Of a DNA stretch of 64,000 bases, positions 14,022 to 16,109 are shown piece after piece (the stretch's first letter is position 1; each line of letters begins with the position of its first letter). Made by a program: the position numbers and the translations under genes. The DNA comes from Hyperoplus lanceolatus (Eukaryota; Chordata; Actinopteri; Uranoscopiformes; Ammodytidae). The DNA lies in the NCBI GenBank assembly GCA_026929865.2, contig CM049403.1, forward strand, positions 22,396,501 to 22,460,500, read 5' to 3'. The notes under the pieces were generated by a model. That model made no database searches. It was not told the DNA's origin and saw only the letters and a program-made list of their open reading frames with translations.

Positions 14022-14125
14022 TCACAAAGTCTCTGAGAGAAGGACCACCATTTATGTGACTGGTCTTAGAAACACCTTGGCCACACCAGTCCCATTGGCC
14101 ATTCATTGCTGTGAGCCTGAATGTC
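14022..14125 (-). pseudogene. C-terminal end of BEL integrase (DUF5641-like), broken
   Basis: Directly after the eL19 segment the minus strand encodes AHSNEWPMGLV, the motif of the BEL/Pao integrase C-terminal domain (usually RNxWPxGxV). After a frameshift and deletion it encodes RPVT, a stop, then MVVLLSETL and a final stop, which fits the usual end of fish BEL pol. This shows that the eL19 piece sits inside pol and not beside the element. The preceding integrase core is missing. Domain assignment rests on family knowledge. Confidence 0.78.
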
Positions 14126-14522
14126 TTTCAGCTTGTGAATGTGCTCTATCCAGATGTGCTTATGCTTGAACACGTTACCCCTGGCCCTCAGGTAGAGGCT
14201 GTGGTGCATGTGCTTGTAGATCCTCTTGGACTCCGTATAGCGGCGCAGCAGACGACACAGGATCCTCATGCGGTGAACCCAAGACAGCTTCTCAGGCATA
14301 GGCTTTACCCTTTCTCTTGCGGACTCCTATGTGTCTTGCCTTACGACGTAATCGCGTGTTCTTGCGGCAGTGTGCCAGGGAGTGGACTGTGACAGGTTTG
14401 TGAATGATTAGACCATCCTTCTCCAGTTTATAGATCTGCAGGCGAGAGTTGACGATGGCGATCTCATCGGTCTCGTTTGGATCCCTCTTCTTGGAGGCCA
14501 GCCTCTTTTGGAGCATGGGCAT
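14126..14522 (-). pseudogene. rpl19: Processed eL19 (ribosomal protein L19) fragment inside BEL pol
   Basis: The minus strand encodes the start of eL19 (MPMLQKRLAS against MSMLRLQKRLAS), then DPNET, KDGLII, KPVTVHS, CRKNT and, in a second frame from 14299, MPEKLSW, MRIL, LLRRY, HHSLYL, GNVF and EHIHKLK. This covers residues 1 to about 146 of a 196-residue protein. eL19 is a basic protein of the large ribosomal subunit. The segment has no introns, although vertebrate RPL19 has several, so it comes from mRNA. It lacks the last 50 codons and any poly(A) tail. It carries small deletions: two codons near the start, about ten codons after KRLAS, and about 8 nt before MPEKL, the last shifting the frame. 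Its first 76 codons are in frame with the BEL protease ORF. It is not a functional ribosomal gene. Confidence 0.95.
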
Positions 14523-16109
14523 GCCCCTGGCAGCTTCTTCAAGGGGAGGAGCATGCTCAGCTTTAACATTGTCCGGCATTTCCTGCATGAACTCCATGTA
14601 AGGATCCTTTGTGTCCAGCTTTTTCTCCAGCGTCCCTTGAAGAGAGTGGGAACGTTTTAATGCGTGTTCCCTGTTGCTTGAAAGGTGTCGTCTAGGAGAG
14701 CAGAACCGTAAAGGAGCCACTACACTGCTCCCGTGTTTCTTGAAAGGTGTGCGACCATCATGCAGTGTGTTTGTCTTGTAGACGTTAACCTCGGACGGTT
14801 TGTGCACTGTTCCTAACCTCACTTCACCCACAACGACCCAGCCTAGGTCTAGCCGCTGAGCGTAAGGCGCATCGTGGGGCCCGTTGATTTGCTCGCGGAC
14901 CTTGTATACCCTTATGATATCTCTCCCTAAGAGCAGAAGGATAGGAGCGTCTTGATCAACAGGTCGAATCTTGTTAGCAACTGGCTGTAGATGTGGATGC
15001 TGATATGCACTCTCTGGACAGGGGATTTCTGACCTCTCGTCCGGCACCATATCACACTCTATTAAGGGTGGCAAGGGAAGTTGCAGCTTCCCGTCCATGG
15101 ACTCAATGACAAAGTTAACAGCTCGTCTACCTGAAGTCTCTGCTTTCCCGGAACTTGTTTTAAGTGTGTATCGGGTGGGGCTGCTTTTTACTTTGAAGAT
15201 GTCGAAGAATTTTGTCTTGGCAAGAGATTTGTTGCTTTGTTCATCCAGCACTGCATACATAGTGGCTGCCTTCTCCTTTTTTCCGGCAGGGTATACTTTA
15301 ACTAAGCAGACCTTTGAGCATGAGCGTGAGCCATGTAGGTTGCCACAAACCTCTGTACATTTGGATGTCACTGAAAAGGATGGACTTTCAGTTTGCTCCC
15401 CGCTCTCATCTTTGTAAGCCGTAGCACTCTGCGTGGTATCAGGAGGAGTGCCTGGATGCAGTGCAGCAATGTGTTTGTCACTGTTGCATTCAAAACACTT
15501 TACTATGATCTTGCAATCTTTTGCCATGTGTTTGCAGGATCCACAACATTTATAGCGGATGCGATTTTCTCTCAGGTAAGTTTTGCGCTCTTCTAGGGTC
15601 TTTTCTCTAAAGAGCTTACATTTTTTCAGTGGGTGGGTCTTCTTGTGTATTGGACACTCACGATCTGGTTCCTCCAGTGTTTTCCAAGCAAACCTGGTTT
15701 CAAAGCCAGATGTCTCTTCGGGGACGTCTGTTTTGTGTACAGTTACAGAGGGTTTACTATTGTATGTCACAGGCCTTTCCGTCTTGGAAAAAGGTTCGCT
15801 GCTGGAGGGGGAAAAAACAAAGCTCGGATCATTTTTTATCTTTGCCTGTTGTGGCACAAATTTGGAGAAGAAAGTGAAAGGAGGGAAGGCCACTCTGTTT
15901 TCTTCTTTGTACTTGCTTCCAACATTCATCCATCGCTCTTGTAGAGGATAGGGCAGCTTTTCCACAATTTGTTTTATCCTACGAGCAGTGTCCAGATATA
16001 AGAGCCCCGGCAGAGCGCCGTTTTCTTTGGCGCACTCAAGCTCAAGGAGAATATCGCCTAGCTCTCTTAGCTTGACGTTATAATTGTTGCTAAGCCTCGG
16101 ACAGTTCAA
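14523..16109 (-). pseudogene. BEL/Pao gag C-terminus, zinc knuckles, aspartic protease, start of RT
   Basis: A 529-codon open stretch that runs on into the eL19 segment. The first 120 residues are the end of the BEL gag domain (DUF1759 type). Around residues 185-225 lies a Cys/His-rich knuckle region (CCGSCKHMAKDC, then CFEC and LHP). Around 280-420 lies the DUF1758-type aspartic protease with VLDEQSNKSL at the active site and LLLGRD near its end. Residues after about 490 (EFMQEM, APPLEEA) match the entry into BEL reverse transcriptase, after which BEL homology stops at the eL19 junction. The frame opens after a frameshift near 16107, so no true start codon is present. The product would process the element's polyprotein. 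Confidence 0.88.

Follow-up and report, generated by a model that had tools for sequence, protein, structure and literature searches.

The window analysed here is a stretch of 64,000 nucleotides of the Hyperoplus lanceolatus genome (807 Mb), taken from contig C9 (C9:22396501-22460500; the other contigs are likewise designated C1, C3 and so on). Its minus strand carries, at 13550-17002, the gag-protease remnant of a retrotransposon of the BEL/Pao type, flanked on one side by a long terminal repeat (LTR) and containing an inserted piece of rpl19, the gene of ribosomal protein eL19. This copy is a decayed member, lacking its 5' LTR, of a non-autonomous retrotransposon family founded on one captured host mRNA.

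Composition of the chimeric element

Two open reading frames (ORFs) on the minus strand span the insertion: one of 607 amino acids (14292-16115) covers gag, the CCHC motif and the protease and runs into eL19, and the other, of 86 amino acids (14066-14326), holds the remainder of eL19 followed by the BEL tail. Both contain eL19 according to Pfam (1.8e-5 for PF01280, which is at its cut-off, and 5.7e-13 for PF25476), and the best matches among eL19 chains from solved ribosomes reach 3.3e-21 and 2.6e-23 for the two ORFs. In a protein search with 8000 scored candidates, the upstream part has 357 BEL relatives at E<=1e-3 (best 4.9e-242); among the 120 listed, many of the named ones belong to fishes and others to frogs or invertebrates. 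The gag-CCHC-protease part is related to BEL polyproteins, and the Pao peptidase family PF05380 is found in some of the relatives listed. An earlier sequence-only reading of this DNA had proposed an intronless eL19 segment within a BEL/Pao element, and these matches bear the proposal out.

That reading had also placed the end of BEL homology just after APPLEEA and its resumption at LKDIQAHSNEWPMGLV, and both limits hold. In the 120 listed proteins, 29 of 170 BLASTP pieces stop directly past APPLE(E), at ORF residue 526 or 527, and only eight end later; four pieces beyond residue 540 are chance-level extensions with 6-11 identities each. Most of the relatives displayed continue at residue 526/527 with WYLP.FGVYHP, the start of the reverse transcriptase (RT) region, and none of the 120 listed proteins has an eL19 match (best E 0.32). 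Behind eL19, BEL homology restarts with LKDIQAHSNEWPMGLV, which a further deletion separates from KVFLRPVT; each of the two is weak alone (E 0.015-0.05), but both are present, in this order, in four BEL proteins. LKDIQAHSNEWPMGLV also occurs, at 69% identity, in a BEL element with a full pol on C1 (locus L020). This element, 68% identical in DNA to the chimera across 1.7 kb, shows that both flanks of the eL19 piece are pol, and relative to it about 2.9 kb of pol is absent between the junctions. The eL19 piece thus replaces the RT-RNase H-integrase core, as had been claimed, and the chimera, having lost these enzymes with the missing pol, is non-autonomous.

Copies and complete insertions in the genome

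A genome search with positions 14060-14560 as query (genome match counts are lower bounds throughout) gave 10 matches: the window itself, four more chimeras, on C8 (90%), C10 (83%), C6 (83%) and C4 (86%, from base 69), and five matches to rpl19 exons, three of them to the ordinary rpl19 gene on C16 and two to C17. A query across the left junction retrieved C9, C8, C10, C6 and the plain BEL element on C1. The chimeric composition is common to all five copies, on five contigs, and the four copies elsewhere rule out an accident confined to the window. The check proposed in the sequence-only reading, a look through the genome for more such chimeras, is thus positive. Positions 17002-13695 of the window are 90.5% identical to the C10 copy and 89.3% to the C6 copy; the C4 copy consists of two matching blocks, and the C8 copy matches only from 14880 onward. 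In all five, a further stretch of about 73-80 BEL codons ahead of VAPL is absent relative to L020, and part of the C-terminus after GLV is missing as well.

Two of these copies are complete insertions with a polypurine tract and an LTR pair, of about 4.59 kb on C10 and 4.55 kb on C6. Over 671 aligned bases each, the LTR pair differs by four substitutions and five gap columns on C10, and by two substitutions and three gap columns on C6, while a 5-bp target duplication stands on each side of the element (ATCAG on C10, ATGGT on C6). These are separate integrations, because their flanks and duplications differ. The LTR pairs and the perfect, distinct duplications indicate that the chimera was moved by an integrase, and the LTR differences of 0.3-0.6% that these insertion events are recent. 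At 16 codons, all copies with data (at least three) agree in an amino acid that neither host gene has, so that a single capture is the simplest account.

Donor and junctions of the captured piece

Judged by synonymous divergence (dS), the donor is clearly the rpl19 gene on C16: the copies differ by 0.32-0.43 from its spliced sequence and by 1.2-1.5 from the paralogue on C17, which is ruled out as donor. In the window, 351 of 417 aligned bases are identical to the C16 mRNA. The RNA origin of the piece is clear, because the four host introns inside the captured span (located by their splice sites) are all missing from the copies, and because spliced 5' untranslated region (UTR) is included, 12 of its 14 bases matching the host in register with the coding part. 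The sequence-only reading had given the segment as residues 1 to about 146, with the eL19 start codon in frame with the upstream ORF. Its end at codon 146 is right, but the piece begins in the 5'UTR, and the methionine taken for the start is Met3; the host ATG itself is replaced by AGG on C8 and in the window copy, and by GGG on C6 and C10, and C4 is wholly different there.

All five copies have their right junction within CTGAA(A/G), following codon 146; the left one is readable in four, C4 deviating at this point. A pyrimidine tract a few bases upstream suggests that the left junction would lie near the 5' end of the mRNA. Alignment to the spliced C16 gene confirms that the segment stops mid-gene with no poly(A) at the piece. 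The word TGAA, the sole short word found at both ends, is present in host rpl19 at both places, and is thus no indication that the piece has a target duplication of its own. A spliced host sequence within a repeat could also be a processed pseudogene made by a long interspersed element (LINE) inside a BEL copy, or an assembly artefact. Given the absence of poly(A), the 3' truncation, the loss of about 2.9 kb of pol at the insertion point and the identical composition of five copies on five contigs, either origin is next to impossible.

Reading frame and selection

In the C10 copy, the Gag-Pro-eL19 frame is open from inside the 5' LTR to WPRCF and a stop (1061 codons from stop to stop), with no Pfam gag or protease family in it at E<=0.01. 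The C6 copy is frameshifted and the C4 and C8 copies are decayed. The window copy is frameshifted in gag, with breaks of the upstream frame near 16100 and 16330; in its eL19 part, an 8-nt deletion breaks the frame, and deletions of 21 and 6 nt shorten it. Compared with host rpl19, the indels shared between copies, of 6 nt (all five) and 30 nt (C10, C6 and C4), are both in frame, whereas five of the seven private ones are not. Small as these numbers are, this is the pattern expected if the frame was held while the element was mobile and lost after insertion.

The ratio of nonsynonymous to synonymous divergence (dN/dS) between copies is 0.34-0.45 in gag and 0.43-0.60 in the CCHC-protease part, ranges that exclude the near-identical C10-C6 pair and the 49-codon protease comparisons of C8 (0.23 and undefined). 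Fisher tests of window against C10 give p values of 0.001 for gag, 0.010 for CCHC-protease and 0.20 for eL19; from these values and ratios, gag and protease were both constrained over the longer term, and the eL19 part does not reach significance. In the C10-C6 pair, dN/dS is 0.85 in the protease and undefined in eL19. As a separate observation, gag dS is 0.12 both between window and C10 and between window and C4, and 0.20 between C10 and C4, and yet the 30-nt eL19 deletion is common to C10, C6 and C4; recombination between copies is possible on this pattern.

LTR relatives and possible helpers

A gag-protease query found 11 matches, four of which are the chimeras (91-100%) and seven of which stand at 64-70%. 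In the LTR search, 40 of 217 candidates were scored and 30 loci cut out, some of them pieces of one LTR. Seven of the 30 come from the five chimeric copies. The remaining 23 hold no chimera-internal DNA and, in flanks of up to 1.5 kb, no BEL protein match beyond residue 25 of the frame, whose start lies inside the LTR; an autonomous parent with a shared LTR is thus not among them. Solo LTRs that are 99% identical and belong to the same family stand on C3 and C20, and three of six LTR loci inspected (L039, L041 and L043) have clear 5-bp duplications. The BEL pol family PF05380 gave 150 scored matches in the genome (of 280 candidates), 32 of which fall in frames 1850-2150 codons long; in three of these 32, the frame reads through a stop. 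Three matches to this family, at C8:31954058, C1:40256512 and C21:2757762, lie in implausibly long frames of 7515, 11782 and 12370 codons, perhaps unread stretches.

Origin and mobilisation of the chimera

It is quite likely that the chimera arose through two template switches in BEL reverse transcription and was then mobilised by enzymes acting in trans, with eL19 most likely a passenger. A BEL/Pao retrotransposon would have co-packaged the C16 rpl19 mRNA with its own RNA. While the minus strand was being made, the polymerase would have switched from BEL RNA, close to the 3' end of pol, to codon 146 of the mRNA, continued along this template into its 5'UTR, and then moved back to BEL RNA close to where the RT domain starts. 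The product kept LTRs, gag and protease, with eL19 in place of RT, RNase H and integrase. How could such an element spread, as its copies show it did? It may make its own Gag-Pro-eL19 protein, and RT and integrase would come in trans from other BEL elements, the eL19 frame presumably staying open while the element was mobile.

Several results weigh against this account. The immediate parent BEL element was not found with the gag-protease query, so that the exact breakpoints and their microhomology (short identity between mRNA and BEL is plausible in CTTGAAG and CTGAA) rest on a relative of 68% identity. A primer-binding site beginning with TGG is expected after a 5' LTR, and C10 and C6 read GTAAAAAGACAAGAGCAC there instead. 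The frame is open across eL19 in only one of the five copies. In the C10-C6 pair, gag dN/dS is 2.92 (one synonymous and ten nonsynonymous changes), which shows no constraint. For eL19, dN/dS between copies is 0.51-0.67 (0.50-1.37 in another alignment), and because these values are indistinguishable from neutral, a function of its own is unsupported.

Double template switching was also the mechanism proposed in the sequence-only reading. The RNA origin on which that proposal depended is secure, while the switching itself has an alternative at the DNA level: a break in a genomic BEL copy may have been repaired with an rpl19 cDNA fragment or a piece of a retrocopy, the patched copy being retrotransposed later. 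End joining also uses microhomology, the two further internal BEL deletions in the copies point to an ancestral copy that was rearranged, and after amplification the products of repair and of template switching look alike. Against this, the 5'UTR start of the piece, which is probably close to the 5' end of the mRNA, is what copying toward the end of a template would give, and the piece ends mid-gene with no poly(A); a repair origin is rather unlikely.

Does the eL19 part serve the element, rather than being carried along? It could be a selected domain, for example a basic RNA-binding tail substituting for pol. The uninterrupted fusion frame of C10 and the in-frame shared indels, set beside the mostly out-of-frame private ones, would fit this, as would a net charge of +29 in 132 residues (host, +36 in 144) and a score of 78 bits for PF25476, the C-terminal eL19 domain, in the C10 copy. 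However, the dN/dS of this part is not significant, and in neutral simulations the frame is stop-free in about 10-36% of runs across the range tried. Five arginines have been lost (R52H, R60L, R62H, R88C and R136H), with CpG observed/expected falling from 0.84 in the host to 0.41-0.63 in the copies. In C10, the N-terminal domain PF01280 scores 22.5 bits, under its cut-off of 25. Selection on this part is improbable. The piece also departs from a functional eL19, which has a complete conserved N-terminal domain and a tail: the tail past codon 146 is missing in all five copies, besides the 6-nt deletion in all five and the 30-nt one in three. A long shot is that the lineage swapped its replication enzymes for a ribosomal-protein domain and benefits from it, the basic eL19 tail making an RNA-binding, nucleolar or ribosome-directed module of Gag-Pro that would aid the entry of the element's RNA into helper-formed particles, or its retention there.

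Features of the window copy and its surroundings

The features of the element in the window are collected in Table 1.

Table 1. Parts of the chimeric element and the adjoining sequence in the window
Feature	Position	Strand	Content or basis
Captured rpl19 mRNA piece, spliced	14126..14542	-	Last 14 nt of 5'UTR to codon 146; C16 alignment, Pfam
Left junction, BEL pol/rpl19 5'UTR, inside CTTGAAG	14536..14546	-	Host TTGAAGTAGCAGCC, window TTGAAGAAGCTGCC, BEL relative CTGGAGCCAGG
Right junction, rpl19 codon 146/BEL C-terminal pol, inside CTGAA(A/G)	14124..14131	-	Host CTGAAGGCAGAC, window CTGAAAGACATT, BEL relative CTCAAAGACAGT
BEL gag, CCHC, protease and first part of pol, frameshifted	14543..17002	-	ORFs, protein matches, C10 and C6 copies
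BEL C-terminal pol remnant: DIQAHSNEWPMGLV, deletion, KVFLRPVT	14061..14125	-	BEL protein matches, BEL relative
Polypurine tract AAGCGGGGAG	13960..13969	-	Direct reading beside LTR start
3' LTR without 261-bp inner stretch (LTR positions 267-527)	13550..13959	-	LTR match in L056
Presumed tRNA-like SINE fragment abutting the shortened 5' end of the element	17003..17101	-	Comparison with C10 copy

A search of the flanks of the window copy for the LTR found none at the 5' end. An LTR with the same 261-bp inner deletion (window site 13694/13695) also occurs on C23 (L053), which suggests that the two may represent an LTR subtype. At its shortened 5' end (16996-17002), the window copy is joined to the first part of what we take to be a tRNA-like short interspersed element (SINE), in the same orientation. 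The element and the SINE presumably share CAAGA at this joint, which a microhomology deletion or an additional template switch would explain.

Elsewhere, 534-1198 and 1234-1937, adjacent and in opposite orientation, form a large inverted repeat that is piecewise similar to the LTR of the element (71-83% identity). A direct repeat of about 340-390 bp (87% identity, 3.2 kb spacing) is found at 18908-19293 and 22145-22486, and a long GT/GTGC simple repeat at 9660-9800. No RNA family at gathering score and no tRNA was found in the window.

Relation to known captures of host genes

In acute transforming retroviruses, a cellular gene replaces part of gag-pol. The chimera resembles them as a replication-defective, presumably helper-dependent provirus with a captured spliced host gene, and differs from them in being an endogenous BEL/Pao retrotransposon with a ribosomal protein and no known phenotype. 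Among LTR retrotransposons, the maize element Bs1 transduces fragments of a plasma membrane H+-ATPase gene and of two other genes, and thus likewise carries host gene pieces and a chimeric gene, as described in excerpts of PMC5408686 and PMC13317346. Bs1 is a plant element with three donors; here, in contrast, a BEL/Pao element of a fish has one donor, a ribosomal protein gene, has its RT-RNase H-integrase core replaced, and is present in at least five copies, two of them young complete insertions. In metazoans, LTR-mediated retroposition (Tan and others 2016, as reported in an excerpt of PMC5408686) proceeds by template switching, in which an mRNA and the RNA of an LTR element are joined at short similarities, the mRNA often being copied only partly. 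The chimera shares with such retrocopies a spliced mRNA inside an LTR element, with no poly(A) and no duplication of its own, but the products described in that excerpt are retrocopies, and here the product is a mobile multi-copy family. Microhomology has also been described at captures by DNA transposons (PMC8277862, in part).

In the open literature searched, with subscription papers mostly outside its scope, no title or abstract opening names a BEL element together with a ribosomal-protein gene. A query across the window junction yielded no match at E<=1e-3 among 85 candidates in public protein databases, where transposon proteins are often omitted. When the eL19 part of the C10 fusion served as query, with candidates restricted to lengths of 0.55-1.75 of 1025 amino acids, two of 220 came out at E<=10, both annotated eL19 fusions, one from a nematode and one from a fungus, and their Pfam lists hold no BEL family.

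Taken together, the capture of host genes by LTR retrotransposons is known, and what seems new is a capture that has grown into a mobile non-autonomous BEL/Pao family. Nothing found in the open literature searched describes a BEL/Pao element in which a captured housekeeping mRNA took the place of the enzymatic core and the product went on to travel as a family of several copies. Here the donor is identified, two insertions are complete and derived changes are shared, so that the transduction of a host gene by a non-infectious retroelement can be measured, in the age of the capture, the number of moves, the fate of the captured frame and the dependence on helpers.
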